DNA of 64,000 bases. Source: Salegentibacter salinarum (lineage in GTDB: Bacteria > Bacteroidota > Bacteroidia > Flavobacteriales > Flavobacteriaceae). Location of the stretch: the NCBI RefSeq assembly GCF_900168115.1, contig NZ_FUZC01000006.1:1-64000 (forward strand), in the 5' to 3' direction. Below are positions 18,455-49,698 of this stretch, in pieces. The translations under genes and the position numbers were made by a program. Every line of letters starts with the position of its first letter. The stretch's first letter is position 1. Below the pieces are notes generated by a model. That model saw only the letters and a list, made by a program, of their open reading frames with translations. It was not told the DNA's origin and ran no database searches.

Positions 18455-20290
18455 TTAAGCTTGTTTCAAAAAATTTGATAAGCTGAAAACAACACGTTTA
18501 AAGATTAATTGATGTGCCTCGTCATTTAAATGTATGCCATCTCCACTATCATATTCCTTTTTTATAAGACTTTCTTCTGTAGAAAAATAAGTCCATAAAT
18601 CAATGATGAATTCTTCATCAAAAAACGCGTAAGTAGCATCTACCATATCTTTCTGAATATTAACCTTTGCTTTTTCAAAATTTCTGGGTTGTGGAGTAGT
18701 TACCCAAACCGGAATTTCATTTTTTATAGAACTAAATATTTTCCGGTAATTTTCTATTTGATCTGTAGCACTGCGGCCCTGGGCGGCATCATTAGATGGT
18801 AAATTAATTATAATTGCATCGGGATTATAAGAAAGTGCCTTAGAAATATTTTTATCGGGGTGGCCACCCGGAAGTAGGTCTGCTGTTGTAAAACCACCCT
18901 TTGCTAGGTTAATAATCTTGAAATTAGTATCGCTTTTCTGGAGGTAGTCCATAAATCGCGGTACCCAGGCATTTTCTTTTTTTGATGGTCCTATTCCTTC
19001 AGCCGTAGACGATCCAAGCACTGCAATTACAACTTCTTCCTTAGATAAATTTATAAAATGGGGCTTTTCATGAATTTTATCGTTTTTTTGACAATACCTT
19101 TTTATTTTTTTTTGTTTCAAATCTAACCTGGCAGCCATTTCCATCATCATAACCCCACTCAATTGTGTAGAAAGATCTGTATGTTCCTTAGGTTTTTGTG
19201 CCCAATTGGGGCCTACTACCATTTCTTCCTTATCTAATCCAAAAGTTATTAGAGTATTAGCATTATAAGTTAAGAAATTTAATAGGGACTCTTTTCTCTG
19301 GTTTTCCAGCGAGGGATTTTCTGCTAAGAGGGTTAAGTTTCTTACCAAAATCCCTTTAAACAGTCCGCCATCACCCTGACCCTCGCTTCTTAAAATCCCT
19401 TCGTAAGTAAGTTTAGGGCTTGTTATTAATGATTTGGTCGTTTTCCAGGCTTCTTCCAAATATTCTTTATTCCCGGTGTGGTTAAATAATTGTGTGGCTG
19501 CTCCTATATAAGTTCCCTGGTTATAAGATAAAACAAGTTCTTTATTTATTACTGGCTCTGCATTTTGATATGATATATTATCCCACACCAGCCCTGTTAC
19601 AGGATCTACAAGAGTGTTTTTTTGCCATTCAAAAATCTTTTTGGCCCATTCAAGTTCAGCCTGGGTATTATTAATATTATATAAATTAAGAGCTAGCAAA
19701 GCGCCCGGACCGTTGGAACAGGCATTTTTTTCTTCGGGCGTGTCTGTTCTCCATATAATTCCTCCTCCGTGTACTTCTGTCCAGCCCTTTTTTATCTCTT
19801 CCCAAAGATATTCTGCTACCTGTTTGTATTCTTCATCTCCTGTGGCCTGATAAGCCCTTACACAGGCAATTCCCAGCCATTCCATATCATCATTAAAAAA
19901 AATTTGAAAGTTATCCTGATTGGAAATTTTTATTCCCCTAACCAGATCTTTTATTTTTGGTAAATAAGATTTATCCTTGGTTCTTAAATAACCATCTATA
20001 AGAATGTCTACCATATGGGCATTCCACCAGTAATGAAATTTATCCTGTCCCTTATTATCCTGAATAAACACTCCCTTTTCTCCTAAGTAATTTTTATAGG
20101 TGGACTCCTGAAGAGAATTTGCAAGTTGAGACCATTTATTATTATTTTCTACAGTAACCAATGAAGGTGCAGAAGATCGTTTTTCTTTACCAAAAACCAG
20201 ACTATGAAAACCAAGTGTAAATAAAATGAAAATCGGTAGATAGGGCTTTAAGAGCCCAGCTAAACTTAAATTTGAAGATATAGATTTCAT
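18455..20290 (-). CDS. GH76 endo-mannanase fused to a C-terminal SGNH/GDSL esterase domain
   Basis: 611 residues with an N-terminal hydrophobic signal or anchor segment (about 11-33). Residues 50-392 are GH76, with Asp134-Asp135 in NDDMEWLG and QGDGGLFKG. A short basic linker (KQKKIKRYCQK) leads to an SGNH hydrolase from about 418 to 611: block I VLGSSTAEG (nucleophile probably Ser428), block II Gly in GGFTTAD, block III Asn500 in LPSND, block V Asp584 and His587 in DGIHLND. All catalytic residues of both domains are present. It would cut alpha-mannan and remove an acyl group such as acetate. Last gene of the minus-strand operon, 135 bases after DUF1080, which contains a hairpin. Confidence 0.9.
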   Translation of the reverse strand: MKSISSNLSLAGLLKPYLPIFILFTLGFHSLVFGKEKRSSAPSLVTVENNNKWSQLANSLQESTYKNYLGEKGVFIQDNKGQDKFHYWWNAHMVDILIDGYLRTKDKSYLPKIKDLVRGIKISNQDNFQIFFNDDMEWLGIACVRAYQATGDEEYKQVAEYLWEEIKKGWTEVHGGGIIWRTDTPEEKNACSNGPGALLALNLYNINNTQAELEWAKKIFEWQKNTLVDPVTGLVWDNISYQNAEPVINKELVLSYNQGTYIGAATQLFNHTGNKEYLEEAWKTTKSLITSPKLTYEGILRSEGQGDGGLFKGILVRNLTLLAENPSLENQRKESLLNFLTYNANTLITFGLDKEEMVVGPNWAQKPKEHTDLSTQLSGVMMMEMAARLDLKQKKIKRYCQKNDKIHEKPHFINLSKEEVVIAVLGSSTAEGIGPSKKENAWVPRFMDYLQKSDTNFKIINLAKGGFTTADLLPGGHPDKNISKALSYNPDAIIINLPSNDAAQGRSATDQIENYRKIFSSIKNEIPVWVTTPQPRNFEKAKVNIQKDMVDATYAFFDEEFIIDLWTYFSTEESLIKKEYDSGDGIHLNDEAHQLIFKRVVFSLSNFLKQA

Positions 20291-20340
20291 AATAACAGAA
20301 TAAATAAAATTTAAAAAGAGGTTTTTAGCTTTTATAATGA

Positions 20341-20388
20341 AGAACCTCTAAACTCACTGGTTTTTACCAGAAGTAAAGAGGTTCTTTT
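20341..20388. promoter_or_regulatory. Nested hairpin between DUF1080 and GH76-SGNH genes
   Basis: Outer stem AGAACCTCT (20341-20349) / AGAGGTTCT (20377-20385), with an inner CTGGT / ACCAG stem within the loop region (20357-20370). The T-run follows on the plus strand, while transcription here is on the minus strand. It may be an mRNA-stabilising or attenuating structure that sets the expression of the last gene; a plus-strand terminator is less useful here. Confidence 0.55.
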
Positions 20389-20425
20389 AAATTCATAACC
20401 ATTGTAGGTAAGGGTTATAAATTAT

Positions 20426-21253
20426 TTATAATTGTTTAATTTTAATGTTTCTAAACCAAACATCATCACCATGGTCCTGAAGGCCTATATACCCTTTTTT
20501 ATCATCTCCTCCTGCGTTTAAAAAGTTTTCCCAGTCTTTAAACTTGCTATTCGCTACCATTTCTTTCCAGTTTTCAGTCCACAGATGGTATTCTACTACA
20601 TTTTCTCCGTTCTGAGAGTGAACTACCGTACCTCTATAAACAATAATAGAAGCTTTATTCCATTCACCCGCTGGTTTAGCGTTTTGAGGTTCAGCAGGGA
20701 TTAAATCATATAAAGAGGCTGACTGTCGATTTCCATCTTTCCCCAGTCTAGCATCAGGATGTTTTTCATTATCTAATATCTGAAATTCCGGGGCAGAGGT
20801 ATATATAGGCTCGTCATCAATTTCCTGAGCCAGGTAGAAGATCCCACTATTGCCACCTTCAGAAACTTTCCATTCCAGAGAAAGTTCAAAATCTTTAAAC
20901 TCCTCTTTATAAATAATATCTCCACCGCCACCGGCTTCCCCGGCTCCACTTCCCTGCACTTTTAAGGCACCGTCTTCAATAACCCAGCCCTGGGGAAAGG
21001 AATCTTTTCCATAACCTCGCCAGCCATCTGTACTCTCTCCATCAAAGAGTAATTCCCAGCCTTCTTCTTTTTCTTTTTCTGAAAGTTCATTTAAACCTGC
21101 CTCATCTTTCAGTTCTTCCGAGTTAGCTTCTATTTCAGGATTGTCCTGGTCCTCATTGGTTTCTTTTTGATCTTTACAGCCGGTAAAAATAACACCAAGA
21201 AGCAAGAGAGGTAGTGCAATGGTTTTCTTTTTAATTTTAGGTAAATATGTCAT
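20426..21253 (-). CDS. DUF1080 (3-keto-disaccharide hydrolase-type) lipoprotein
   Basis: 275 residues, lipobox Cys26 (FTGC) and an acidic Asp/Glu-rich linker (about 30-62). The concanavalin-like DUF1080 domain spans about 63-275, with GWELLFDGESTDGWRGYG, DFELSLEWKVSEGGNSGIFY, PEFQILDNEKHPD and the closing GYIGLQDHGDDVWFRNIKIK. DUF1080 proteins in other Bacteroidota act on 3-keto-glycosides produced by a partner oxidoreductase. Here the partner Gfo/Idh/MocA gene lies directly upstream (38-base gap). The substrate, probably a 3-keto mannoside or glucoside, is inference. Confidence 0.9.
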   Translation of the reverse strand: MTYLPKIKKKTIALPLLLLGVIFTGCKDQKETNEDQDNPEIEANSEELKDEAGLNELSEKEKEEGWELLFDGESTDGWRGYGKDSFPQGWVIEDGALKVQGSGAGEAGGGGDIIYKEEFKDFELSLEWKVSEGGNSGIFYLAQEIDDEPIYTSAPEFQILDNEKHPDARLGKDGNRQSASLYDLIPAEPQNAKPAGEWNKASIIVYRGTVVHSQNGENVVEYHLWTENWKEMVANSKFKDWENFLNAGGDDKKGYIGLQDHGDDVWFRNIKIKQL

Positions 21254-21291: not shown

Positions 21292-22767
21292 TTATAATTT
21301 CCAACCTTCTCGGTAATTGTGTTTAATATATTGTTCGGCCGCTTCTTGAGCATTAATGGTTGCATACTGGGTATTAAATTTTGGATCGCCATCTACCACA
21401 GTGAATTTATCGGTAGTTACCACCTTAATTTCCTCGCTCTCTCCAATATTGGTGATTTTCATATTCTTCCCATCCCAGTTTAATTTTTTATTCAGATCCT
21501 GTAATCGAACCGCTAAATTACCCATGACTACCACCTCATTAAATGGCCCGGAATAACCGAAGTGCGAACTTGCCTCAACACGGTTATTTTTAGACTCTTT
21601 ACAAGCTCTAACCCAGTCCATCTCATGGCTGGTTTCCACCCGTGGGATTACCTTGTTGGTTTGTGGTGGATTGTCTTCTCTTCCTATGATATAAGGATTA
21701 CGGCCATAAGTTCCACAAATAATAGTTCCTTTTGTACCTACCACCATAGCTCCTCCATCATTATCCCCAAGGACTTTTCCTGGTTTAATACCTTCAGGTC
21801 TTTCCGGCATTAATCCCCCGTCATACCAGGTTAATTTTAGTTCAGGTCTATTTATTTTATTCAGCTTAGATTGTTCAGGGAAATAATAAATTACTTTTTC
21901 TGCAATGGGAGCACTTTCGGTATTTACCTGGGATGAGCTACCTTCAAAGGCTTTGGGATGATCTAAATCAAGAGCAAAATATACGGGATCCATAATATGG
22001 CAGCCCATATCACCTAATGCACCAGTTCCAAAATCCCACCATGCTCTCCAATTCCAGGGTGTATATGCTGGATGATATGATCTATATTCAGCAGGTCCTA
22101 TAAAGAGGTCCCAATCAAGAGTAGAAGGAATAGCCGGTTCGTTTTCTGGTCTTTCCAATCCTTGTGGCCAAATGGGGCGGTTAGTCCAACAATGCGCTTC
22201 AATAGGATCACCAATTTCTCCATTTCGAATCCATTCAGCAAAAAGTCTGGTACCTTCCCCAGAATGCCCCTGGTTACCCATCTGGGTGGCAACACCTGTT
22301 TCCTTAGCGAGTTCGGTTAGGTACCGGGATTCATAAATAGAATGGGTAAGAGGTTTCTGTAAATATACATGTTTCCCCATTTTCATACTCTCAGCAGCCG
22401 TTACAGCGTGAGTATGATCAGGAGTTGCTATTACAACTGCATCTATATCATCACCCATTTCATCTAACATCTTACGGTAATCCTTAAACTTTTTAGCCTG
22501 AGGATAATCATTAAATGCTCTTTGGGCATATTTCCAATCCACATCACAAAGGGCTACAATATTTTCCCCTGCCATTTCCCTAAGATTAGCTCGTCCCATT
22601 CCACCTACGCCAATCCCAGCAATATTTAATTTGTCACTAGGGGATGTATATCCAACTCCTCCAAGTACATGCCTTGGAACGATAGAAATACCCGCGGCAA
22701 CTGTTGCGGTACGGCTTATAAACTTTCTTCTTGAAAATTTATTTAAATCCTTATTTTTTTTGTCCAT
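21292..22767 (-). CDS. Tat-exported Gfo/Idh/MocA-family oxidoreductase
   Basis: 491 residues. A twin-arginine signal (SRRKFISRTA, Arg13-Arg14) implies export folded with its cofactor. The NAD(P)-binding loop GIGVGGMGRANL (about 51-62) and QKP motif (137-139, in place of EKP) precede the C-terminal alpha/beta domain with TPWNWRAWWDFGTGALGDMGCH. Exported members in Bacteroidota oxidise or reduce sugars, often at C3, with a tightly bound nucleotide. It is the first gene of the minus-strand operon (then DUF1080, then GH76-SGNH), and a locus operator lies about 200 bases upstream of the start. Confidence 0.9.
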   Translation of the reverse strand: MDKKNKDLNKFSRRKFISRTATVAAGISIVPRHVLGGVGYTSPSDKLNIAGIGVGGMGRANLREMAGENIVALCDVDWKYAQRAFNDYPQAKKFKDYRKMLDEMGDDIDAVVIATPDHTHAVTAAESMKMGKHVYLQKPLTHSIYESRYLTELAKETGVATQMGNQGHSGEGTRLFAEWIRNGEIGDPIEAHCWTNRPIWPQGLERPENEPAIPSTLDWDLFIGPAEYRSYHPAYTPWNWRAWWDFGTGALGDMGCHIMDPVYFALDLDHPKAFEGSSSQVNTESAPIAEKVIYYFPEQSKLNKINRPELKLTWYDGGLMPERPEGIKPGKVLGDNDGGAMVVGTKGTIICGTYGRNPYIIGREDNPPQTNKVIPRVETSHEMDWVRACKESKNNRVEASSHFGYSGPFNEVVVMGNLAVRLQDLNKKLNWDGKNMKITNIGESEEIKVVTTDKFTVVDGDPKFNTQYATINAQEAAEQYIKHNYREGWKL

Positions 22768-22957: not shown

Positions 22958-22980
22958 CTAATATACTAAAACGATTTAGC
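22958..22980 (-). promoter_or_regulatory. Promoter-operator of the minus-strand Gfo/Idh-DUF1080-GH76 operon
   Basis: On the minus strand GCTAAATCGTTTTAGT (14/16 to consensus) is followed by TATATTAG (22958-22965), the same composite as at 14872 and 23438 but in the opposite orientation. This puts the 3-keto genes in the same predicted regulon as the mannan hydrolases. Confidence 0.72.
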
Positions 22981-23437: not shown

Positions 23438-23460
23438 ACTAAACCGTTTTAGTATATTAG
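23438..23460 (+). promoter_or_regulatory. Promoter-operator of the SusC/SusD operon
   Basis: ACTAAACCGTTTTAGT (15/16 to consensus) is followed by TATATTAG (23453-23460), 45 bases before the SusC ATG. Preceded by an eight-T tract as at 14872. Confidence 0.75.
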
Positions 23461-23504: not shown

Positions 23505-26500
23505 ATGGAAAAAAAGACTAGCCTGTTTTTAAGGTCTATTTACCTTCGATTGAATCGCAAATATTTTTTGTTTTTCTTATTCATGGTATTTCAGATTGTC
23601 CAGGCATATCCAAATGCGCTGAACCAAAATACGGTTACAGGTACTGTTACTGATTCTGATGGATTACCTCTACCGGGGGTGACAATCCAGGAAAAAGGAA
23701 CTAACAATGGAGCTCAAACTGATTTTGACGGAAATTACTCTATAACATTAGAAAATCAGGATGCTGTACTGGTTTTCTCTTTCGTTGGAATGCAGACTGT
23801 TGAACAAGATGTAAATGGTCAATCTTCGATTGATATCGAAATGGAAGCCAGCCAGGAATCTTTGGATGAGGTAGTTCTGGTAGGGTATGGTACGCAAAAT
23901 AGAAGGTCTGTAACTACTTCTATTACTAAAGTAACTGAAGATGATTTTAATCAGGGTGTTGTTACTAATGCCTTGTCCCTTATTCAAGGGAAAGTGCCTG
24001 GTTTGTCAATTACCAGACCTGCAGGCAATAATCCGAATGCAGGAACATCTATTCAACTTAGAGGGGTGACCTCAATAACCGGTAATACCGAACCTCTAAT
24101 TGTTATAGATGGTATTCCAGGTGGTAGTTTAGACCTTGTGCAGCAAAATGATATTGAGTCTTTTGATGTACTTAAAAGTGGTGCCGCTTCGGCAATTTAT
24201 GGAACCCGAGGGAATAATGGTGTTATATTAATAACTACCAAAAAAGGTAAAGCTGGAATAACTAGTTTTGAATATTCGACATTTTTATCCCGGGATTTTG
24301 TGAATGCTAAACCAGATTTTTTATCTGCAGCACAATATAGGCAAGCTATGGAAGATGGTGTATTCTCTTCCAATGATTTCGGCTATAGTACAGATATTTT
24401 TGACGAACTTGTTAATGATACGAACCTTAGCCAGTATCATAATTTTGTAGCTTCCGGTGGGGGAGAAAACAGTAATTACAGGGTTTCATTATATTACAGA
24501 AATCTTGAAGGAATTGCATTGGAAAATGAACGAGAAGAATTTGGGGTTAGAGCTAGTTTTAATCAATCTGCTTTCGACGATAGATTGAATTTTCAGTCCA
24601 GTATTGTGACCAACTTTAACAATGCTAATTTATTAGGGGGAGGTCAATTTGGTATTGTAACAGATTGGAATCCCACTGCGCCAATATATGCTCCTTACTC
24701 TGTGGACGAAGGAACCGATTTGTATAATGAAGGGAAATTCGGTTTTTATCAACCTCAAAGAGGCTATAATCCCTTTTCTGAATATGAAAACAGGTTTAAT
24801 AAGCGACAACAGCAAACTTTTTCAGGTGATGCTAAAGCTTCCTTTGAAATTACAGAAGGCTTAATAGTTGCTGCATTTGGATCTTACCAACGCAATACAT
24901 GGAATGACAGGCAGCATCGATCAATCCAGGATTGGAATCAGTATAATGACGGAAGTGAGTACCTGGGAACTGGTTATGCTTATAAATCCAACCTATTGGA
25001 TCACACCACTACTTTTGAACCTACCTTAACCTTCGAGAGAGAAATAGGAGATCATACTTTTGATCTTTTAGGAGGATATAGTTACCAGTATACCACGCAA
25101 GAGACCTTTGATATGAATAACAGTGGTTTCACTACTGATGCATTTTTAGACTGGAATTTTGGGGCTGGTAATGCTATTATCGATACCGATTTGCCCCGCC
25201 CAAGTTTAAACAGTTTTAAGAATGATAATACACTTATCGCATTTTTTTCGAGGGTAAATTATTCTTTTAAAGATCGCTACTTCTTGCAGGCATCTATGCG
25301 TAGGGAAGGGTCTTCTAAATTTGGAGCTAATAATAAATGGGGTAATTTCCCTGCCGTTTCTGCTGCCTGGTTAATATCAGATGAACTTTTTATGGAAGAT
25401 ACAGACTTTGTTTCTAATCTTAAACTAAGAGCTGATTATGGTATTACCGGAAATCAGGGCATTCCGAATTATCAATCTTTAGTGACCCTTGGTACTGGTG
25501 GACGTTATCCAATATATCCAGACTCCCCAAATGCCGATGGACAATATATCCCTACTTTCTATCAAACCTACGGAGCTAATAAGAACCCTAACCCTGACTT
25601 AAGATGGGAAAGAAAGAAGGAATGGAACGTTGGATTGGATTTTGGTCTATTTAATAACAGATTAACGGGGGCTTTGGATGTTTATAACCGACGTACTGAA
25701 GATTTGCTTTTAAGTTATGAAGTGCCTCAACCACCGTTTGTTCAGCGTACTATTTATACCAATGTTGGTACTATAACCAATAAAGGGGTAGAATTAGGAA
25801 TGTCTTTTAGAGCCATTAATTCTGAAGACTTTAGCTGGACTATCGACATGGCTGGTAGTTATCAGGAAAACGAACTAACAACTCTTTCAAATGATCAGTT
25901 TATTGCCAGTGAAATTTTTGGGGGAAATATTGGAAACCCAGGAAATTTAGGTGATGCAATTAGAAATACAGAAGGAGGACCAATTGGGAATTTCTACGGG
26001 AAAAGGTTTGCCGGGTTTACACAGGAGGGAGAATGGCTATTTTATAAAGCCGATGGATCAGTTGCAACAGCAAGTGAGATTAGTCCGGAAGAAGATAATG
26101 CGATAATAGGAAACGGGATGCCAAAGTACAATGCATCACTGACTAATACATTTCGCTATAAGAACTTTGATCTTACCATTTTCTTACGAGGAAAATTCGA
26201 TTATGATATCCTGAATACAGTAGACCTGTTTTATGGAAACCCTAATATTGGAGGAAATGTTTTGACCTCTGCTTTAGACCAGTATAGCCATATTAGTGAA
26301 CAGCCTCAGTATTCAGATTATTATCTGGAAAGTGGTGATTTTGTAAAGCTAGATAACGTAACTCTTGGTTATAATTTCAAATTTGGAGAAAATAGTCCTT
26401 TCAATGCCCTTAGAGTATATGCTAATGCACGGAACCTGGCTGTAATTACTGGATACACCGGTAGAGATCCTGAAGTTCAGGATACTGGGTTGTATCCTGG

Positions 26501-26567
26501 TGTAGATGACAGGAATTTTTACCCAAGAACTACCACGATTACTGCCGGTATCAATGTTAAATTTTAA
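23505..26567 (+). CDS. SusC/RagA-family TonB-dependent receptor
   Basis: 1020 residues. An extended N-terminal signal is followed by a carboxypeptidase-D-like domain (TGTVTDSDGLPLPGVTIQEKG), the TonB-box-like LDEVVLVGYGTQ, a plug (SLIQGKVPGLSITRPAGN, GTRGNNGVILITTKKGK) and a long 22-strand barrel ending in ITAGINVKF. It imports oligosaccharides released at the surface, in complex with the SusD that follows 13 bases later. Transcribed from the operator-controlled promoter upstream. By context the cargo is alpha-mannan oligosaccharide. Confidence 0.95.
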   Translation: MEKKTSLFLRSIYLRLNRKYFLFFLFMVFQIVQAYPNALNQNTVTGTVTDSDGLPLPGVTIQEKGTNNGAQTDFDGNYSITLENQDAVLVFSFVGMQTVEQDVNGQSSIDIEMEASQESLDEVVLVGYGTQNRRSVTTSITKVTEDDFNQGVVTNALSLIQGKVPGLSITRPAGNNPNAGTSIQLRGVTSITGNTEPLIVIDGIPGGSLDLVQQNDIESFDVLKSGAASAIYGTRGNNGVILITTKKGKAGITSFEYSTFLSRDFVNAKPDFLSAAQYRQAMEDGVFSSNDFGYSTDIFDELVNDTNLSQYHNFVASGGGENSNYRVSLYYRNLEGIALENEREEFGVRASFNQSAFDDRLNFQSSIVTNFNNANLLGGGQFGIVTDWNPTAPIYAPYSVDEGTDLYNEGKFGFYQPQRGYNPFSEYENRFNKRQQQTFSGDAKASFEITEGLIVAAFGSYQRNTWNDRQHRSIQDWNQYNDGSEYLGTGYAYKSNLLDHTTTFEPTLTFEREIGDHTFDLLGGYSYQYTTQETFDMNNSGFTTDAFLDWNFGAGNAIIDTDLPRPSLNSFKNDNTLIAFFSRVNYSFKDRYFLQASMRREGSSKFGANNKWGNFPAVSAAWLISDELFMEDTDFVSNLKLRADYGITGNQGIPNYQSLVTLGTGGRYPIYPDSPNADGQYIPTFYQTYGANKNPNPDLRWERKKEWNVGLDFGLFNNRLTGALDVYNRRTEDLLLSYEVPQPPFVQRTIYTNVGTITNKGVELGMSFRAINSEDFSWTIDMAGSYQENELTTLSNDQFIASEIFGGNIGNPGNLGDAIRNTEGGPIGNFYGKRFAGFTQEGEWLFYKADGSVATASEISPEEDNAIIGNGMPKYNASLTNTFRYKNFDLTIFLRGKFDYDILNTVDLFYGNPNIGGNVLTSALDQYSHISEQPQYSDYYLESGDFVKLDNVTLGYNFKFGENSPFNALRVYANARNLAVITGYTGRDPEVQDTGLYPGVDDRNFYPRTTTITAGINVKF

Positions 26568-26580
26568 ACACACACAAGAA

Positions 26581-34508: not shown

Positions 34509-35207
34509 ATGGATAGAAGGGAGTCATTAAAAGCACTGGTACTGGGCGGCGTAGGATCCAGCCTGTTCCTTAGCAGCTGCGTAACTGATAAAAAATCACC
34601 TATCGTAGAAGGTGATATTATTGAAGAAAAAGAAGGTTATGGAAGAACCCCTGCTGAAGAGAAAAGGGATGAAGATCTATATTCCAAGACATTTTTCTCT
34701 AAAGAAGAGATGGCTACCATTTCTATATTGGCAGATATTATTATTCCTGAAGATGAAGAATCGGTTTCGGCTACAGAAGCTGGTGTGCCAGAATTCATCG
34801 AGTTTATTGTAAAAGACATTCCCGAACATCAAATTCCCATGCGCGGAGGTTTAATGTGGATTAATCGGGAAAGCAATAAACATTTTGAAGCAGCTTTCAA
34901 TGAGATTTCAAAAGAAAATCAAATGGAAATTATTGATAACATGGCTTATCCCAGAGCTTTTGAAGAGAATTCTCCAGGTCCGGTGTTTTTTAGGAATATC
35001 AGAAACCTGGTAGTTACGGGGTACTTTACCAGTGAACCAGGATTTAAGTACCTGGATTATCGTGGGAATACTCCCAATGTTTGGGACGGTGTGCCAGCTT
35101 ATGTGCTTGAGAAACATGGAATGAAATACGATGAAGGTTTTTTGAAAGTAGCTATGGATCCCGCAACTAGAAATGAAGTAATGGACTGGAATAACTATGA
35201 AGTTTAA
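34509..35207 (+). CDS. Gluconate 2-dehydrogenase subunit 3-like partner of the GMC enzyme
   Basis: 232 residues. The N-terminus has Arg-Arg (MDRRESLKALVLGG) and a lipobox-like LFLSSC, giving a Tat-type lipoprotein signal that could carry the flavoprotein across the membrane. The body (FFSKEEMATISILADIIIPEDEE, GVPEFIEFIVKD, FFRNIRNLVVTGYFTSEPGFKYLDYRG) is the small-subunit family PF13618. It starts 12 bases after the GMC gene, so they are co-expressed. Confidence 0.87.
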   Translation: MDRRESLKALVLGGVGSSLFLSSCVTDKKSPIVEGDIIEEKEGYGRTPAEEKRDEDLYSKTFFSKEEMATISILADIIIPEDEESVSATEAGVPEFIEFIVKDIPEHQIPMRGGLMWINRESNKHFEAAFNEISKENQMEIIDNMAYPRAFEENSPGPVFFRNIRNLVVTGYFTSEPGFKYLDYRGNTPNVWDGVPAYVLEKHGMKYDEGFLKVAMDPATRNEVMDWNNYEV

Positions 35208-35223
35208 ACAAAAATTATTACAG

Positions 35224-36249
35224 ATGAAAAATTCTTATAAAACCCTTTTATTATTAGTGTTTGTGGCTCTTGGGGTTACAAGTTGCAAAATGAATGCAGA
35301 AGATAATAAGGGAAAAGAAGAGAAAACAGAAGAAGAAACAGTTCAAAACAACAACCCGGTCTTTCCCGGATGGTATGCTGATCCTGAAGGAATTGTTTTT
35401 GATGATGAATACTGGATTTTCCCTACTTATTCCGCCCCATACGAGGAACAGGTATTTCTTGATGCTTTTTCATCAAAAGACCTGGTAAACTGGGAAAAGC
35501 ACGAGAGAATAATTGATACTGCGGAGGTAGAATGGGCTAAACGGGCCATGTGGGCGCCTGCCATTATTAGAAAAAATGAAGTTTATTTCCTGTTCTTCGG
35601 TGCTAATGACATTCAAAGCGATGATGAGTTAGGAGGAATTGGAGTGGCGAAAGCTTCAAGCCCGGAAGGACCGTACGAAGATTATTTAGGGGAACCCTTA
35701 ATTGGTAAATTCCATAATGGCGCCCAGCCTATAGACCAGTTTGTGTATGAAGATGATGGGGAATATTATATGTTCTATGGCGGGTGGCAACATTGTAACG
35801 TAGCAAAATTAAATGATGATTTCACAGGTTTCAAACCTTTTGAAGATGGTGAAACTTTTAAAGAAGTGACCCCGGAAGGTTACGTCGAGGGACCCTTTAT
35901 GTTTAAACGAGATGGGAAATATTATTTTATGTGGTCTGAGGGCGGCTGGACCGGTCCAGATTACAGTGTAGCCTATGCAATTGCCGATTCTCCTACTGGC
36001 CCCTTCGAAAGAATAGGAACCATATTACAACAAGATCCTGATATAGCCACTGGGGCGGGACATCATTCGGTAATAAAAACCCCTGGGAAAGATGATTACT
36101 ACATGGTTTACCATCGCCGTCCAAAGGGTGAAACCGATCGAAATTCAAGGGAAACCTGTATTGATAGAATGTATTTTGATGAAAATGGGCATATAAAACC
36201 TGTAGTAATCACTCATGAAGGAGTTAAGCCAAATCCAATAAATAAATAA
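35224..36249 (+). CDS. GH43-like five-bladed beta-propeller glycosidase lipoprotein
   Basis: ATG at 35224 is chosen over one at 35197 because it lies after the previous stop and gives a compact lipoprotein signal (GVTSCKM). 341 residues with a Glu/Lys-rich linker. The propeller shows WYADPEGIVFDDEYW (catalytic Asp), MWAPAIIR, IDQFVYEDDGEYYMFYGG and EGPFMFKRDGKYYFMWSEGG (catalytic Glu), plus a blade-5 HHSVIKTP. Family members cleave arabinosides, xylosides or galactans. In a mannan locus, between the oxidoreductase pair and GH92, it may remove a side sugar; specificity unknown. Confidence 0.82.
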   Translation: MKNSYKTLLLLVFVALGVTSCKMNAEDNKGKEEKTEEETVQNNNPVFPGWYADPEGIVFDDEYWIFPTYSAPYEEQVFLDAFSSKDLVNWEKHERIIDTAEVEWAKRAMWAPAIIRKNEVYFLFFGANDIQSDDELGGIGVAKASSPEGPYEDYLGEPLIGKFHNGAQPIDQFVYEDDGEYYMFYGGWQHCNVAKLNDDFTGFKPFEDGETFKEVTPEGYVEGPFMFKRDGKYYFMWSEGGWTGPDYSVAYAIADSPTGPFERIGTILQQDPDIATGAGHHSVIKTPGKDDYYMVYHRRPKGETDRNSRETCIDRMYFDENGHIKPVVITHEGVKPNPINK

Positions 36250-36260
36250 AATATTATTAT

Positions 36261-38555
36261 ATGAAAACTAATTTTTTTGTCCTTGCGTTTTGCTTTTTTG
36301 CAACGTTTGTCAATGCGCAGGATTACCTTGTAGAAGTAGTTGAAAATCCGGTAGATTGGGTAAAGCCGCTTATGGGAACGGATTCTAAGCCGAGCATGTC
36401 CAATGGAAATGTGTATCCGGCCATTGCCCGTCCCTGGGGAATGAATTTTTGGACCCCACAAACCGGTAAAATGGGCCACGGTTGGGCTTACCAGTATACT
36501 GCAGATAAACTGCGTGGGTTTAAACAAACGCATCAACCTTCTCCCTGGATGAACGATTATGGCCAATTTGCAATCATGCCCATAACCGGAGAAATTCGAT
36601 TTAATGAAGATGCCCGGGCCAGTTGGTTTTCCCATAAATCGGAAAAAGTGAATCCGCACTATTACAGCGTATATCTTGCCGATCATGATGTAACCACCGA
36701 GATAACACCTACGTCAAGAGCAGCTCGTTTCCGCTTCACTTTCCCGGAATCTGATAGTTCTCATATAGTTATTGATGCATTGGATATGGGTTCTTATGTA
36801 AAGATTATCCCTGAAGAAAATAAAATAATTGGGTATACGACCAAAAACAGTGGAGGAGTGCCAGATAATTTCAAGAACTATTTCATTATAAAATTTGATA
36901 AAGAATTTACCGCTTCCCATACATTTAGCGGGGAAGAAATTTCAGAAGAACTGGAAGTTGAAGCTGAGCACGTAGGAAGTGTGATCAGTTTTAAAACTGA
37001 AAAAGGAGAAATTATTAATGCAAAGGTAGCTTCGTCCTTTATCAGTTATGACCAGGCCGAATTAAACATGGAAGAAATTGGAAATGACGATTTTGAAACC
37101 GTAAAAGAAAAAGGCCGCGAAGAATGGAATCAAGAACTTTCCAGAATTAAAGTGGAAGGTGGGACTCCAGATGAAGTAGCAACATTCTATTCCGCATTGT
37201 ACCGTTCCTTGCTTTTTCCAAGAAAATTCTATGAATATAATGCCGAAGGCGAAGTAGTACATTACAGTCCGTATAACGGGGAAGTTTTGCCCGGTTATAT
37301 GTTTACAGATACCGGTTTTTGGGATACTTTCCGCTCTTTATTTCCGTTCTTAAATTTAATGTACCCAGAACTAAATGCTAACATCCAGAAGGGCCTGGCC
37401 AATGCTTATAAAGAAAGCGGTTGGTTGCCAGAATGGGCGAGTCCGGGACTTAGGAACATTATGGTGGGTAACAACTCGGCTTCAGTTGTTGCTGATGCTT
37501 ATTTAAAAACTGATGGGAAGTTTGATTATGATATTGATTTATTATATGAAGCACTTCTAAATGGCGCGAACAATGAAGGGCCTATGACCGCAGTAGGACG
37601 TGCTGGGGCTGAATATTATAAAGAGCTTGGTTATGTTCCTTATGATGTGGGTATCAATGAGAATGCCGCCAGAACTTTAGAATATGCTTACGATGATTTC
37701 GCAATATATCAACTGGCAAAAAAACTAAATCGTCCTAAAGAAGAGATTGAACTTTATAAAGAGCGTAGCCTTAACTATAAAAAACTCTATGATCCGGAAA
37801 CCAAGCTAATGCGTGGAAAGAAAGAGAACGGAGAATTTGTAGAAGATTTTAATCCGTTTAAATGGGGAGATGCATTTACTGAAGGTAACAGCTGGCATTA
37901 CTCCTGGTCGGTTTTTCACGATCCCCAAGGATTGATTGATTTAATGGGAGGTAAAAAAGAATTTGTAGCTCAATTAGATAAAGTATTTGAAATGCCTCCG
38001 GTTTTTGATGAAAGTTATTACGGTGGGGTAATCCACGAAATACGCGAAATGCAAGTTGCCGATATGGGCCAATATGCACACGGAAATCAACCAATTCAGC
38101 ATATGATTTACCTGTATAATTATGCAGGTGAACCCTGGAAAGCTCAATATTGGGTACGAGAAACTATGGATAGAATGTACCAACCAACTCCCGATGGCTA
38201 TTGCGGCGATGAGGATAACGGGCAAACTTCAGCCTGGTATGTATTTTCTGCAATGGGCTTCTATCCCGTAGCTCCAGCGACAGATGAGTACGTAATGGGT
38301 GCTCCGCTTTTCAAAAAAGTAACTGTAGAACTTGAAAATGGAAACGAGCTTATTATTAATGCTCCTCAAAATAGTGATTCCAATAAGTATATTCAGAAAA
38401 TGGAATTAAACGGAAAGGAATACACGAAGAATTTCTTAAGTCACAAAGAACTGATGAAAGGAGCAGTGATCGATATAGAAATGGGCGATACCCCTAATAA
38501 GAAACGAGGAACTGAAGAATCTGATTTTCCTTATTCTTTGACTAATGAACTATAA
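36261..38555 (+). CDS. GH92 alpha-mannosidase-family protein with Gln at the catalytic-acid position
   Basis: 764 residues, signal peptide ending FVNAQ. GH92 layout: N-terminal sandwich (LMGTDSKPSMSNGNVYP, GFKQTHQPSPWMNDYGQF) and helical barrel (RTLEYAYDDFAIYQLAKKL, GDEDNGQTSAWYVFSAMGFYP). The family HGNEP is HGNQP with Gln610, as in the GH92 at 16161. The GTDSxPSxSxGNxYP start defines a subgroup distinct from the HTYPGA GH92 enzymes at 38597 and 45541. It may act on an unusual linkage. 11 bases after GH43. Confidence 0.92.
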   Translation: MKTNFFVLAFCFFATFVNAQDYLVEVVENPVDWVKPLMGTDSKPSMSNGNVYPAIARPWGMNFWTPQTGKMGHGWAYQYTADKLRGFKQTHQPSPWMNDYGQFAIMPITGEIRFNEDARASWFSHKSEKVNPHYYSVYLADHDVTTEITPTSRAARFRFTFPESDSSHIVIDALDMGSYVKIIPEENKIIGYTTKNSGGVPDNFKNYFIIKFDKEFTASHTFSGEEISEELEVEAEHVGSVISFKTEKGEIINAKVASSFISYDQAELNMEEIGNDDFETVKEKGREEWNQELSRIKVEGGTPDEVATFYSALYRSLLFPRKFYEYNAEGEVVHYSPYNGEVLPGYMFTDTGFWDTFRSLFPFLNLMYPELNANIQKGLANAYKESGWLPEWASPGLRNIMVGNNSASVVADAYLKTDGKFDYDIDLLYEALLNGANNEGPMTAVGRAGAEYYKELGYVPYDVGINENAARTLEYAYDDFAIYQLAKKLNRPKEEIELYKERSLNYKKLYDPETKLMRGKKENGEFVEDFNPFKWGDAFTEGNSWHYSWSVFHDPQGLIDLMGGKKEFVAQLDKVFEMPPVFDESYYGGVIHEIREMQVADMGQYAHGNQPIQHMIYLYNYAGEPWKAQYWVRETMDRMYQPTPDGYCGDEDNGQTSAWYVFSAMGFYPVAPATDEYVMGAPLFKKVTVELENGNELIINAPQNSDSNKYIQKMELNGKEYTKNFLSHKELMKGAVIDIEMGDTPNKKRGTEESDFPYSLTNEL

Positions 38556-38596
38556 TATATGAGGCGGATCTTTCAATCTACATAAATTAAAAATGA

Positions 38597-40963
38597 ATGA
38601 AATTCAACAATAATTTTATTACTTCAACAGGAACATTTTTAGTGTTCCTGTTGTTTTTTTCCTGCGGAAAAGAAGAAAAAACTACTGAATCGAATAATTT
38701 ATCTTCAACCCAAGATCTAAAAGATCTCGCTCAGTTTGTAGATCCAATGATTGGTACGGCCAAAATGGGTCATACCTATCCCGGTGCTACGGTGCCCTTT
38801 GGAAGCGTGCAGTTAAGTCCTGATACAGATACCATTCCTTACGCGGTAGATGGTAAATATAACCCCGATGTTTATAAATATTGTGCAGGTTACCAGTATG
38901 ATGATTCCACGATAATTGGTTTCAGCCATACCCATTTTAGCGGTACCGGTCATTCCGATTTAGGTGATTTTTTAATAATGCCCACCACGGGCGAATTAAA
39001 ATTGAATCCTGGAACAGAAGCTAACCCGAATAGTGGTTATCGTTCTCGTTTTTCGCATAAAACCGAGACTGCCGAAGCCGGTTATTATAAAGTTTTTCTG
39101 GAAGATTATGATATTGAAGCTGAAATGACGGCGTCAAGCCGGGTAGGCATGCATCGGTATACTTTTGCGGACAAAGAAGAAGCCCACGTTATCCTGGATT
39201 TAATGTCTGGAATTTATAATTACGATGATAAAAATGTATGGACATTTGTTAGGGTAGAAAATGATACTTTAATAACAGGTTTTAGACAAACCAACGGTTG
39301 GGCAAGAACTCGCAAGGTTTTCTTTGCCATGAGCTTTGATAGACCCATTAAAAATTACGGGCGAGCACGTTACGATAAACAACCTTATAATGGTTTCTGG
39401 GGTAAATTCGACCAGGATGAGAATTTCCCTGAAGTAGCGGGTGAAAAAATCAGAATGTATTTTGATTTTGATATGGAAGCCGAGGAAAAACTTCAAGTTA
39501 AACTTGCAATTTCCCCGGTAAGCTCCGAAGGAGCGCTTAATAATATGAAAACCGAAATTCCGCATTGGGATTTTGACAAAGTAAAAGATGATGCTCGTGA
39601 AAAGTGGAATGAGGAATTAAATAAAGTAGTAGTAGAAGCTGAAAATGATGCCGAAATGACAAATTTTTATACCGCTATGTACCACGCTTTCTTGGGACCT
39701 ACCGAATATATGGATGTGGACGGTAAATACCGTGGAATAGATATGAATATTCACCAGGCTGAGGATTTTGTGAATTATACTAGTTTCTCACTGTGGGATA
39801 CTTATCGGGCCTTACATCCGCTGTTTAATATTTTACAACCCGAGCGTAATAGTGACATGGTGGAGGCGATGCTGGCTCATTATGACCAGAGTGTCCATAA
39901 AATGCTACCGGTTTGGTCGCATTACGCTAATGAGAATTGGTGTATGATTGGTTATCACAGCGCTTCAGTAATCTCCGATGCCATCGTAAAAGGAAATGCT
40001 GGTTTTAATGAAGAACGCGCTTTAGATGCAATGGTACAAACTGCCAAAACGGGTTATTATGATGGTCTGGAATACTATATGGAAAAAGGATATGTGCCTG
40101 AAGATAAAAACAGCGCCTCGGTATCCAAAACACTGGAGTATGCTTACGATGATTGGGCCATAGCGCAGGCGGCAGAAAAAATAGGGAATAGCGAGGTTTA
40201 TGACGAATTTTTTAAAAGGTCTGAAAACTATAAAAACGTTTTTGATAGTAAAACGGGCTTTATGAGGCCTAAACTGGATGATGGAAGTTTTAAAAAAGAG
40301 TTTGATGCTTTAAATACCCACGGGCAGGGTTTTATTGAAGGGAATGCCTGGAATTACAGCCTGTATGTTCCACATCAGCCGGCGGAAATGATTGAGATGA
40401 TGGGTGGAAAGCAGCAATTCTCTCAGCATTTAGATTCTTTGTTTTCAATGGAATTACCTGATAAATATTTTGAACATACGGAAGATATTTCCAGGGAAGG
40501 AATAATTGGCAATTACGTGCATGGAAACGAACCATCGCACCATGTTGCTTATTTGTACAATTGGACCAATACTCCCTGGAAGTCCCAGGATAAAATAAGG
40601 ATGATTTTAAAAGACCAGTATCAAACCGGTGCTGATGGTTTAGGCGGGAATGATGATTTTGGACAGATGAGCGCCTGGTATATTTTCAGTAGTTTTGGCT
40701 TTTATCCCGTAGCACCCGGTTCTACACAATATGCTTTAGGGAGTCCGGCGATCAGTAAGGCTACAATAAATCTCGACAATGGCAATACTTTTACGGTTAT
40801 TGCCGATAACCAATCTGCAGAAAATGTTTTTGTTTCAAAAGTAGAACTTAATGGAAAAGTTTTGGATGACCCGTTTATAGACCATAATGATATTATGGCT
40901 GGAGGAGAGTTGAAATTTTATATGAGTAGCGAGCCGAATAAAGAAATTTACAGAGAAAATTAG
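38597..40963 (+). CDS. GH92 exo-alpha-mannosidase lipoprotein (canonical)
   Basis: 788 residues, lipobox Cys (LFFSCGKEEK). Full GH92 signature with MIGTAKMGHTYPGATVPFG, GFSHTHFSGTGHSDLGD, catalytic acid Glu645 in HGNEPSHH, and GNDDFGQMSAWYIFSSFGFYP with the general-base Asp pair. The GTGHSDLGD and HTYPGA motifs are typical of alpha-1,2- and alpha-1,3-mannosidases of the family. The ATG at 38597 is used, as the one four bases earlier runs into a stop. An intrinsic-terminator-like hairpin lies inside the signal-peptide codons. Confidence 0.95.
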   Translation: MKFNNNFITSTGTFLVFLLFFSCGKEEKTTESNNLSSTQDLKDLAQFVDPMIGTAKMGHTYPGATVPFGSVQLSPDTDTIPYAVDGKYNPDVYKYCAGYQYDDSTIIGFSHTHFSGTGHSDLGDFLIMPTTGELKLNPGTEANPNSGYRSRFSHKTETAEAGYYKVFLEDYDIEAEMTASSRVGMHRYTFADKEEAHVILDLMSGIYNYDDKNVWTFVRVENDTLITGFRQTNGWARTRKVFFAMSFDRPIKNYGRARYDKQPYNGFWGKFDQDENFPEVAGEKIRMYFDFDMEAEEKLQVKLAISPVSSEGALNNMKTEIPHWDFDKVKDDAREKWNEELNKVVVEAENDAEMTNFYTAMYHAFLGPTEYMDVDGKYRGIDMNIHQAEDFVNYTSFSLWDTYRALHPLFNILQPERNSDMVEAMLAHYDQSVHKMLPVWSHYANENWCMIGYHSASVISDAIVKGNAGFNEERALDAMVQTAKTGYYDGLEYYMEKGYVPEDKNSASVSKTLEYAYDDWAIAQAAEKIGNSEVYDEFFKRSENYKNVFDSKTGFMRPKLDDGSFKKEFDALNTHGQGFIEGNAWNYSLYVPHQPAEMIEMMGGKQQFSQHLDSLFSMELPDKYFEHTEDISREGIIGNYVHGNEPSHHVAYLYNWTNTPWKSQDKIRMILKDQYQTGADGLGGNDDFGQMSAWYIFSSFGFYPVAPGSTQYALGSPAISKATINLDNGNTFTVIADNQSAENVFVSKVELNGKVLDDPFIDHNDIMAGGELKFYMSSEPNKEIYREN
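38625..38660 (+). promoter_or_regulatory. Terminator-shaped hairpin inside the 5' coding region of GH92
   Basis: A perfect 11-bp stem CAACAGGAACA (38625-38635) / TGTTCCTGTTG (38643-38653), 7-base loop and seven T directly after. It lies in codons 10-22 of the GH92 gene. It may pause or end transcription unless ribosomes follow closely. Function is inferred from shape alone. Confidence 0.65.
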
Positions 40964-40969
40964 TAGAAA

Positions 40970-42283
40970 ATGAATCAAAAGAAATCTTATCGTACAGCTT
41001 TTATATTTGTAACTATCCTCTTTTTTCTTTGGGGCTTTATTACCGTGCTGGTAGATTCACTCATACCTAGATTAAGAGAAGTTTTTACACTTTCTTATTT
41101 TCAGGCCGGGATGGTACAGTTTGCATTCTTTGGTGCTTATTTCTTACTATCTATACCGGCAGGATATATTTTGTCGAAAATAGGATATAAAAAAGGAATT
41201 ATTTTAGGCTTGGTTACAATGGCCGTAGGTTGCTTGCTTTTTTATCCTGCAGCTTCCTATCGCATCTTCGGAATTTTTATGTTTGGGTATTTTACACTTG
41301 CAGCTGGAATTACCATATTACAGGTGGCAGCAAATCCTTATGTTACTATTTTAGGTTCGGAAAAAACAGCTTCGAGCCGCCTTAACTTATCGCAGGCTTT
41401 TAACTCTCTTGGAACGGCAATAGCACCGGCTTTAGGAGCATTATTTATCCTCCAGGATAAAGTAAAAACTACCGCCGAGATTGAAGCCCTGGATCCTACT
41501 GCTCAAACGAGCTATTATATTTCTGAAGCCTCAGCGGTACAAACACCTTTCCTGGGAATTGCAGCTTTTATAATAATAATTGCCATTGTTTTCTTTTTCG
41601 TAAACCTTCCCAAAGTAGGAGATAAGGAAGCTTCGAATGACTATCGCGGAGTATTAAAGAATAGAAATTTAATCCTGGGAGCCATTGGTCTGTTTTGTTA
41701 TGTAGGAGCAGAAGTGGCCCTGGGAAGTTATATGGTGAACTATTTTTTAAGCCTTGATCTTGCTGAAACGGTGCGGGAAACATCTTTTATGCGCACTATC
41801 GCAAGCTGGATTTTGAGTACTGGGGTGTCAGCTTCAAGTGATATGGCTGTGGTTGGTGTTTTTGTCACCTTTTATTGGACGGGAGCAATGATAGGAAGGT
41901 TTATTGGTTCTTATTTAACCACTATTTTTAACCCTGCTAAGGTTTTAAGTGTTTTTGCAATAGGAGCAATAAGTATGATACTTATATCTACATTTTCGGT
42001 TGGACTTGCAGCTATGTGGACAATTATTGCAGTAGGCCTATTTAATTCGATTATGTTCCCCACAATTTTCAGTCTTGCTTTAGACGGCTTAGGAGATGAT
42101 AAAGCCCAGGGTTCAGGAGTATTGTGCACCATGATAGTTGGTGGCGCGATTATACCGCCGGCTTATGGATTCTTAACCGATTCCTATAGTTTTAAAATTG
42201 CCTTGATTTTAGTGATGATTTGCTATGCTTACATATTTTATTATGCCTGGACTAATAAAAGAAGAACAGTGGTAATAGAGTAG
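40970..42283 (+). CDS. MFS sugar:proton symporter (FucP/glucose-mannose type)
   Basis: 437 residues, about 12 hydrophobic helices, beginning AFIFVTILFFLWGFITVLVDSLIP, the common start of the FHS family (L-fucose, glucose/galactose, mannose permeases). Helix 4-5 has the family segment LQVAANPYVTILGSEKTASSRLNLSQAFNSLGT. It would bring released mannose (or another monosaccharide) into the cytoplasm for the ROK kinase. Starts 6 bases after GH92. Confidence 0.9.
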   Translation: MNQKKSYRTAFIFVTILFFLWGFITVLVDSLIPRLREVFTLSYFQAGMVQFAFFGAYFLLSIPAGYILSKIGYKKGIILGLVTMAVGCLLFYPAASYRIFGIFMFGYFTLAAGITILQVAANPYVTILGSEKTASSRLNLSQAFNSLGTAIAPALGALFILQDKVKTTAEIEALDPTAQTSYYISEASAVQTPFLGIAAFIIIIAIVFFFVNLPKVGDKEASNDYRGVLKNRNLILGAIGLFCYVGAEVALGSYMVNYFLSLDLAETVRETSFMRTIASWILSTGVSASSDMAVVGVFVTFYWTGAMIGRFIGSYLTTIFNPAKVLSVFAIGAISMILISTFSVGLAAMWTIIAVGLFNSIMFPTIFSLALDGLGDDKAQGSGVLCTMIVGGAIIPPAYGFLTDSYSFKIALILVMICYAYIFYYAWTNKRRTVVIE

Positions 42284-42350
42284 AATTTCTAATTGACAGC
42301 TTTAAAAATAAGAGCAGGTCTGTGTTATTTATAATTTAAAACCCTAATGT

Positions 42351-42401
42351 GCTGCCTATAATCCGATCGATGCAGTACTTCAGCTGTCAGGGGTAGGCAG
42401 C
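42351..42401 (+). promoter_or_regulatory. Hairpin between the MFS gene and the isomerase gene
   Basis: GCTGCCTA (42351-42358) pairs exactly with TAGGCAGC (42394-42401), closing a 35-base loop with no strong inner stem. No T-tract follows, so it is either a weak terminator or a structured leader of the isomerase gene 67 bases on. Confidence 0.45.
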
Positions 42402-42468
42402 CATAAGTTTGTAGGAAACATTTATTTCTTTTTATTAAATTGAATATTTAATTAAAGATTTTACTTGA

Positions 42469-43395
42469 ATGGACAGGAGAAAATTTATTAAACAAAATAT
42501 TGCCGCAACAAGCCTGGCCGGGCTTGGACCATATTTGGGTTACGCAGGGAATTTCGAAGAAGTTTCTACTTTCGTAAAGAACCAGTTTAAACTTTCTTAT
42601 GCGCCACATTTGGGGATGTTTAAGGAACTTGCCGGGGAAGACCCTATAGATCAGCTAAATTTTATGGCCGATAGAGGTTTTACAGCCTTTGAGGATAACG
42701 GAATGAAGGCCAAGCCTGTTGAGCTGCAGGAGAAAATGGCTAAAACAATGGCTAATAGAAATATTAGAATGGGTGTTTTTGTGGCTCATAATATCTATTG
42801 GACTGAACCTAATCTTGCAAGTGGGGATGAGAATCTGCGAGAAGAATTTTTAAACCAAATTAAAGAATCCGTTGAAGTAGCAAAAAGAGTAAATGCGAAA
42901 TGGATTACTGTTGTTCCCGGTTATGTTGATCAGAGGCAAAATTTACAATACCAAACCGCTCACGTCATTGAAACCTTAAAAAGAGCATCAGAAATTCTAG
43001 AGCCCCACGGAATAATCATGGTGTTGGAACCATTAAATTTCAGAGATCATCCGGGATTATTTTTATCGGGTTCACCACAGGCCTATCAAATATGTAAGGC
43101 CGTAGATAGTCCGTCTTGTAAAATTCTTTTTGATATTTATCACCAACAAATTCAGGAAGGCAATTTGATTCCTAATATTGAAGCAACCTGGGATGAAATT
43201 GCATATTTCCAGGTAGGTGACAACCCAGGAAGAAATGAACCTACAACCGGTGAAATAAATTATAAAAATGTCTTTAAATTTATTCATAATAAAAATTATG
43301 ATGGTATTGTGGGCATGGAACACGGGAATTCCAAGCCAGGCAAAAAAGGTGAGAAATCGATAATTGAAGCTTATAAACAAAGTGATGATTTTTAG
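42469..43395 (+). CDS. Exported TIM-barrel sugar isomerase/epimerase (hydroxypyruvate isomerase-like)
   Basis: 308 residues with an RR-type signal (MDRRKFIKQNIAATSLAG). The AP-endonuclease-2/xylose-isomerase-like barrel shows Glu in GFTAFEDNGMK, WITVVPGYVD, IMVLEPLNF, ILFDIYHQQIQEGN, AYFQVGDNPGRNEPTTGEINY and IVGMEHGNS, i.e. the metal-binding Glu-Asp-His-Glu set. Exported members of this family occur with Gfo/Idh oxidoreductases and DUF1080 in 3-keto-sugar and C-glycoside pathways. The exact reaction (isomerase, epimerase or lyase) is unknown. Confidence 0.85.
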   Translation: MDRRKFIKQNIAATSLAGLGPYLGYAGNFEEVSTFVKNQFKLSYAPHLGMFKELAGEDPIDQLNFMADRGFTAFEDNGMKAKPVELQEKMAKTMANRNIRMGVFVAHNIYWTEPNLASGDENLREEFLNQIKESVEVAKRVNAKWITVVPGYVDQRQNLQYQTAHVIETLKRASEILEPHGIIMVLEPLNFRDHPGLFLSGSPQAYQICKAVDSPSCKILFDIYHQQIQEGNLIPNIEATWDEIAYFQVGDNPGRNEPTTGEINYKNVFKFIHNKNYDGIVGMEHGNSKPGKKGEKSIIEAYKQSDDF

Positions 43396-49697: not shown

Positions 49698-49698
49698 T

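Follow-up and report, generated by a model that had tools for sequence, protein, structure and literature searches.

Why should a gene cluster with the content of an alpha-mannan utilisation locus carry, among its glycoside hydrolases (GH), two oxidative gene pairs that may act on glycosides at C3? The question is raised by a stretch of 64,000 nucleotides of Salegentibacter salinarum DNA (bases 1–64000 of contig C21, in a genome of 4.31 Mb; this whole stretch is called the window below), in which a Gfo/Idh/MocA oxidoreductase (Gfo) is encoded next to a DUF1080 protein, and a GMC oxidoreductase next to a gluconate-2-dehydrogenase subunit 3 (subunit 3). We give somewhat better than an even chance to the explanation that the two pairs form a periplasmic 3-keto-glycoside route serving oligosaccharides trimmed by the GH92 and GH43 enzymes of the locus, with mannosides as the presumed substrate. 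The type of mannan locus has already been published; the new part is the 3-keto gene setting inside it. Cleavage via 3-keto-glycosides has been described for disaccharides and plant glycosides (PMC11300592, PMC9007349, PMC10628242), and among the literature matches listed, which covered few subscription journals, none joins DUF1080, GMC or 3-keto chemistry to alpha-mannan.

Two oxidative pairs in an alpha-mannan type locus

The first pair belongs to a minus-strand unit that runs from 22767 down to 18455 in the order Gfo (21292–22767), DUF1080 (20426–21253) and a GH76 domain fused to a C-terminal GDSL lipase/acylhydrolase domain (18455–20290; PF03663, 149.8 bits, and PF13472, 61.6 bits), with gaps of 38 and 135 bp. 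The profile searches placed Gfo in the NCBIfam equivalog NF058561 (the BT2158 family, 'glycoside 3-dehydrogenase'; 822.3 bits against a cut-off of 750) and DUF1080 in Pfam PF06439 ('3-keto-disaccharide hydrolase'; 180.4 bits, cut-off 26.8). Among solved structures, Gfo matches PDB 8tdf over 454 residues (E 5e-177), and DUF1080 matches 4hxc, 8tda and 8rr2 (E about 1e-92). These scores strongly support the family assignment as a known kind of pair, a glycoside 3-dehydrogenase with a 3-keto-disaccharide hydrolase, as had been proposed in an earlier note made from the DNA letters alone. We take 8tda, 8tdf and 8tdh to be entries of a 2024 Nature paper on 3-keto glycan breakdown, a process reportedly of broad specificity. 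In Bacteroides thetaiotaomicron, BT2158 is a periplasmic glycoside 3-dehydrogenase acting on trehalose, leucrose, palatinose and glucosinolates (PMC11300592), and BT2157, of the DUF1080 domain family, has been called a 3-ketotrehalose hydrolase (PMC9007349). The window pair shares with BT2157/BT2158 the Gfo family, the DUF1080 domain family, the adjacency of the genes and an export-type start, but lies in an alpha-mannan type locus, beside GH76-GDSL and with LacI-type palindromes, and the substrates reported for BT2158 are not mannosides.

The second pair lies in a plus-strand run that extends from SusC to an MFS transporter and, after a gap of 185 bp, to a xylose-isomerase-like TIM barrel (23505–43395). 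The GMC flavoprotein (32769–34496), recognised by Pfam and by alignment, is followed by the small subunit 3 with its twin-arginine start (34509–35207; PF13618, 105.4 bits), i.e. the arrangement of the LacA/GlycDH type. All 87 compared rows of its class carry cysteines 216, 219, 222 and 226 of GMC as well as His507 and Asn550, the histidine and asparagine of GMC enzymes. Cysteines 216, 222 and 226 align with those of glucose dehydrogenase (PDB search at 1e-39); conservation and alignment together point to a putative iron-sulphur cluster and to electron export. The translations, read by eye for export signals, have twin-arginine starts in Gfo (SRRKFISR), subunit 3 (MDRRESLK, with a lipobox-like cysteine after it), the barrel (MDRRKFIKQ) and GH125 (MKRRKFIQN), and lipoprotein-like starts in DUF1080 and GH43; no export signal was seen in those of GMC and the ROK kinase. 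In related dehydrogenases a GMC protein without a signal is exported by its twin-arginine partner, and the Caulobacter lactose 3-dehydrogenase combines a GMC flavoprotein and a small subunit.

Two published routes offer comparison. The Caulobacter LacABC enzyme is described as a periplasmic lactose 3-dehydrogenase, with DUF1080 as the proposed periplasmic hydrolase, and LacABC and DUF1080 genes occur together in diverse bacteria (Price et al. 2022, PMC9007349); this route serves lactose and other glycosides, not mannan, and its likeness to the window GMC is one of description. The Rhizobium/Agrobacterium GlycDH operon with the AtOGE eliminase resembles the window in its components, namely a flavoenzyme that oxidises C3 and is used alongside a 'TAT-pathway signal protein', a pair of isomerase-like proteins, and a reductase of the Gfo kind; its substrates are flavonoid glucosides and model disaccharides (PMC10628242). 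AtOGE and AtHYD are likened to the barrel by description.

The surroundings of both pairs have the content of an alpha-mannan utilisation locus according to Pfam, i.e. SusC/SusD with GH76, GH92 and GH125. On the plus strand, a GH2 gene (start 11614) is followed by a LacI-family regulator (13797–14828; LacI and periplasmic-binding domains), GH76 (14956–16134; PF03663) and GH92 (16161–18365; PF07971). SusC, SusD, an F5/8-domain protein and a BSP peptidase (23505–29982; Pfam) open the long run, and GH125 alpha-mannosidase (30154–31587; PF06824, 583 bits) and the ROK sugar kinase (31621–32751; PF00480) precede GMC. Subunit 3 is followed by GH43 (35197–36249; PF04616, best PDB match 3qz4), by two GH92 genes of kinds that recur next to GMC in other genera (36261–38555 and 38597–40963), by the MFS sugar transporter of FucP/GluP type (40970–42283; TIGR01272, 260.1 bits, cut-off 202.6) and by the hydroxypyruvate-isomerase-like barrel (42469–43395; PF01261, 124.8 bits). 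The genes named in the earlier note are all present, with domains scoring above the Pfam cut-offs, which rules out chance or artefactual gene calls; GH43, ROK, MFS and the GDSL fusion are components that were missing from its list. The closest named GMC match, at 98% identity, comes from Salegentibacter agarivorans, where the gene order from GH2 to MFS is identical (82–98% identity) and the LacI regulator is 93% identical. A locus of the same genus with GH76, six GH92, GH125, GH43 and GH2, that of Salegentibacter Hel_I_6, has been reported as alpha-mannan inducible, and of the two GH76 genes credited to S. salinarum one is said to carry an esterase domain (Solanki et al. 2022, PMC9213526). A term search of the available main text of that paper found no oxidoreductase, dehydrogenase, DUF1080 or GMC, and neither GMC nor oxidoreductase turned up in term searches of PMC13063451 and PMC6298971.

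A palindrome upstream of both units

A palindrome search of the intergenic gaps revealed a candidate operator, the 16-mer ACTAAAACGTTTTAGT, which occurs without mismatch at 10131–10146. Within 3 mismatches the window contains only five sites, all intergenic; the others stand at 11567–11582 (1 mismatch, upstream of GH2), 14872–14887 (1 mismatch, upstream of GH76), 22965–22980 (2 mismatches, 198 bp before the Gfo start, a spacing kept in S. agarivorans) and 23438–23453 (1 mismatch, about 50 bp before SusC). The Gfo/DUF1080/GH76 unit and the SusC-GH125-GMC-GH92 run are thus each preceded by a copy. In the genome as a whole, no more than 1 mismatch is found at 7 sites, of which 4 lie in the window, 2 at a GH92/SusCD locus (contig C18) and 1 on contig C17, among genes without a label. 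The shared operator of the earlier note is supported in that such an operator-like site exists. Only the near-perfect sites carry weight, and matches at looser cut-offs were given none, because they show no excess over controls: with up to 3 mismatches allowed, the 14-mer core matches 11 times in the window against 7.3 expected, a number reached in 15 of 100 shuffles, and at up to 3 mismatches genome-wide the reversed control pattern is the commoner one (108 vs 55 per strand). The neighbouring LacI protein is the likely, though putative, binder of the palindromes, and co-regulation of the oxidative and the mannan-digesting genes is likely.

The same genome contains another 3-keto type module, apart from the mannan locus (contig C33), with DUF1080, two TIM barrels, Gfo, a nucleoside-type MFS, GMC and subunit 3; the 19.9 kb read there hold no palindrome within 3 mismatches. 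The two C18 palindromes, each with 1 mismatch, lie at a GH92/SusCD locus other than that of the window, and suggest either that the regulon is wider or that there is a second regulator with like specificity.

The palindrome recurs in several GMC loci of other genomes. Upstream gaps with the 14-mer core at up to 2 mismatches were found for 11 of 85 GMC genes and for 11 of 856 unlabelled open reading frames (ORFs) of the same loci (Fisher p 5e-7, an overstated value, the rows being related and not independent). Three Galbibacter genomes bear GH125, and in two of them a perfect copy precedes this gene.

The pairs in other genomes

To what extent do the oxidative pairs accompany mannosidases elsewhere? 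Eighty named GMC loci were fetched with up to 10 kb on each side (several shorter), and the GH92 label was reserved for the two kinds found at 36261–40963 of the window. So defined, GH92 occurs in 13 of the 80 loci (two of Salegentibacter, three of Sinomicrobium, four of Galbibacter, and one each of Joostella, Zhouia, Allomuricauda and a further flavobacterium) and in none of 32 control loci (12 of Gfo, 20 of the barrel); the p-value of 0.018 is weak, since the rows are related and the contigs unequal in length. The gene order is ROK-GMC-subunit 3-GH43-GH92-GH92 in Salegentibacter, LacI-GH43-GMC-subunit 3-SusCD-GH92-GH92 in Sinomicrobium and mostly SusCD-GH92-GH92-GMC-subunit 3 in Galbibacter and Joostella, and the GH92 proteins of the Sinomicrobium, Galbibacter, Joostella and Zhouia loci are 73–79% identical to those of the window. 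A Hymenobacter plasmid carries GH92-binding protein-GMC-subunit 3-LacI between SusCD genes, its GH92 having 43% identity to the closest window GH92. The link between the GMC pair and GH92 loci, previously proposed for the window, therefore extends to Sinomicrobium, Galbibacter, Joostella and the Hymenobacter plasmid.

In several genera (L035, L037, L041, L043 and others) the GMC/subunit 3 pair stands between genes which, judging by the protein starts, are presumably rpsP-rimM-tRNA methyltransferase and an acyl-CoA dehydrogenase; this setting is possibly the older home of the pair.

Within Salegentibacter (15 genomes, including our own), GMC is present in 7 (E <= 1e-100), a close Gfo in 4 (E <= 1e-150) and GH125 in 4. 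The two pairs are joined in genome G255, where SusC (in two pieces), SusD, Gfo, DUF1080, LacI, ROK, GMC, subunit 3, GH43, GH92, GH92 and MFS follow each other on one strand; the genome is without GH125, and no GH76 is found in the roughly 40 kb read, GH76 having been looked for in that stretch and not genome-wide. In isolate oa5 GMC lies in the GH125 locus and the genome has no close Gfo. The GMC copies thus occupy different loci within the genus, and the variation in gene content indicates that the oxidative pairs belong to the locus as an optional and exchangeable component; the partners most often kept by GMC are GH92, not GH76. G255 has a second GMC copy (L226, 8885–13035) whose two pieces are separated by two ORFs of 275 and 392 amino acids; ROK lies upstream of this copy and subunit 3 downstream.

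Several observations weigh against a firm tie between the pairs and mannan digestion. The coupling of Gfo/DUF1080 to GH76 seen in the window did not hold up in the synteny survey, in which 13–20 kb were read around each of 12 Gfo relatives, the best ones found outside the genus in 199 genomes: DUF1080 adjoins Gfo in 8 of the 12, which speaks for the pair itself, but no GH76, GH92 or GH125 is labelled near any of them, so that among the stretches read only the window strain and S. agarivorans have the pair adjoining GH76 and a tight linkage across the family is rejected. GMC is without a labelled GH92 in view in 67 of the 80 loci (some on short contigs). GH125 was found in 17 of 48 GMC-bearing genomes tested, once as a fragment, and inside the GMC locus in only 2 of 80 cases, both in Salegentibacter, which disposes of a tight GMC-GH125 linkage; Robertkochia solimangrovi has LacI-GH43-GH92-GH92-GH125 with GMC elsewhere. 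In all four Echinicola loci the palindrome stands 185–197 bp before a GMC gene without a GH92 label, hence it is not specific to mannosidase loci. A tree of 88 GMC rows was made by a quick method and has an outgroup branch that is very long; on it the GH92 label requires 7 changes, of which starred branches force 6, compared with 14.1 for shuffled labels, i.e. the linkage is clustered, but not of one clean origin. In Salegentibacter strain 24 the locus reads GH76-GH92-GH125-ROK-GH43-GH92-GH92-MFS and contains neither oxidative pair; the genome lacks a close Gfo altogether and keeps GMC elsewhere, behind SusCD. The locus of this strain has been described as short, without SusC/D and perhaps having lost its function (Solanki et al., PMC9213526). 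The coupling of the oxidative genes to GH76 or GH125 is patchy. In two Sinomicrobium genomes (L193, L194) a distant, different Gfo/Idh/MocA protein (111–125 bits to the window Gfo) lies about 1–2 kb from GH125.

The barrel, which the earlier note had counted as part of the oxidative module, fared unevenly. It does follow MFS in the window, and its relatives are often found near GMC/subunit 3: matches at E <= 1e-60 occur in 44 of 149 family genomes searched, the best 29 loci outside (63–71% identity) have a subunit 3 of the C33 class in the short flank in 19 cases, and when 20 loci were read more widely, 13 had both GMC and subunit 3 of this class no more than four genes away from the barrel; 10 of the 13 also carry a C33-like TIM-MFS-Gfo unit. 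Within Salegentibacter, however, the barrel is present in only 4 of the 15 genomes, again a point against a fixed module, and the other three copies adjoin GH20, outside the mannan locus (in G250 about 19 kb from GMC on the same contig); we therefore reject the barrel as a standing part of the mannan locus of this genus, and its placement in the window is strain-specific. In our own genome the window copy is the only match, and the C33 module is without one. The protein scores 135.9 bits against TIGR03234 (hydroxypyruvate isomerase), below the equivalog cut-off of 353.5, and was rejected as a member of that equivalog; a role as a keto-sugar enzyme is plausible.

Possible route and alternatives

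How might the components work together? We infer a route in which a locus of alpha-mannan type would have recruited two 3-keto-glycoside oxidation pairs and put them under its own switch. GH76 would cut the glycan, SusCD would import the fragments, and GH92, GH125 and GH43 would trim the oligosaccharides in the periplasm. Short mannosides, or glycosides that the hydrolases handle poorly, might then be oxidised at C3 by the exported Gfo, an enzyme of the nicotinamide adenine dinucleotide (NAD) type from the BT2158 family, and/or by the GMC enzyme with flavin adenine dinucleotide (FAD) and iron-sulphur; the GMC enzyme would be exported by its twin-arginine partner and feed electrons into the respiratory chain. 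With the C2-H acidified, DUF1080 could break the bond through elimination and hydration. The keto-sugar so released may serve as a substrate of the exported barrel, and its reduction by Gfo may close the NAD cycle; the free sugar would enter via the MFS carrier and be phosphorylated by ROK. If 3-keto cleavage is indeed wired into polysaccharide loci, counting glycoside hydrolase genes alone misreads marine mannan digestion, and mannose flux may partly avoid free mannose. As G255 has both pairs, GH43 and two GH92 on one strand, the question can be tested with about ten genes. A stricter version, to which we attach a low probability, is a dedicated oxidative cleavage of alpha-mannosides in which the mannosyl unit would pass through a 2-hydroxy-3-keto-glycal to glucose or 3-keto-glucose and mannan carbon would thus be brought into the gluco series while still outside the cytoplasm, with mannose-6-phosphate isomerase bypassed. 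The release of a gluco-series sugar would follow from C3 oxidation and subsequent C1-C2 elimination, which destroys the configuration at C2; the elimination mechanism from which we derive it has been described for glucosides (PMC10628242).

Or perhaps the oxidative pairs act on a part of the substrate other than mannose, for example a side-chain sugar handled together with GH43? We regard this as unlikely, yet as the most serious of the alternatives. The run in G255, where both pairs stand with GH43-GH92-GH92, argues for it by the genes it lacks (GH125 in the genome, GH76 in the stretch read), as does the adjacency of GH43 and GMC in Salegentibacter and Sinomicrobium; the GH43 of the published homologous locus is said to be closest to an arabinofuranosidase (PMC9213526). 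On the other side, the GMC pair of Galbibacter, Joostella and Zhouia keeps GH92 with no GH43 in view.

A further alternative, rather improbable, is that GMC and subunit 3 form a periplasmic aldose dehydrogenase acting on C1 of free mannose or of oligosaccharide ends for respiration, with only Gfo/DUF1080 engaged in 3-keto chemistry. The best solved relatives of GMC, FAD glucose dehydrogenase (E 1e-40) and fructose dehydrogenase, enzymes that oxidise C1 and C5, point in this direction and away from C3, and so does the alignment of three of the four clustered cysteines with glucose dehydrogenase. Yet the GMC class of the C33 module matches the same PDB entries, hence these neighbours do not discriminate between the two chemistries and were discarded as a guide to regiochemistry. 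Two further findings speak against the proposed route: a Pfam scan of 40 window proteins revealed no cytochrome subunit, and the last TIM protein of the Pseudoalteromonas run described next has no similarity to the window barrel at E 1e-4. That run is the main reason to consider C3 chemistry for GMC. In the plasmid collection, the closest GMC matches outside Bacteroidota are four Pseudoalteromonas records (46%); the one opened (L283) reads Gfo-TIM-MFS-DUF1080-GMC-subunit 3-TIM, and the other three list DUF1080 under the match. Its GMC is 46% identical to the window GMC as against 31% to the C33 class, i.e. the window class itself occurs in a Gfo/TIM/DUF1080 operon of 3-keto type. Judged by this gene context, C3 oxidation by GMC is moderately likely.

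That general disaccharide 3-keto genes were simply captured by recombination, without a dedicated role in mannan digestion, is improbable. In its favour, GH76 linkage was seen in two strains only, DUF1080 matches in the genome number 12 (11 of them above the cut-off), the C33 module stands separately, and GMC copies are scattered over different loci of the genus. Against it, the units of the mannan locus have palindromes of their own, whereas the C33 stretch has none within 3 mismatches, and GMC with GH92 recurs in several genera.

Returning to the proposed 3-keto route and its surroundings, two further features of the window lie downstream of the barrel. The unit at 43657–57620, adjoining a histidine kinase/LytTR regulator pair, comprises GH92, an SSF transporter, GH130, a CBM9 protein, GHL10, GH20 and GH92, and by its gene content looks like an N-glycan (mannosyl-GlcNAc) module beside the mannan locus. 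After it, a second SusC precedes SusD in two overlapping frames, 57783–58595 (270 amino acids, with a plug domain) and 58561–60900 (779 amino acids, without a Pfam match), probably because of a frameshift, either in the gene or in the assembly.

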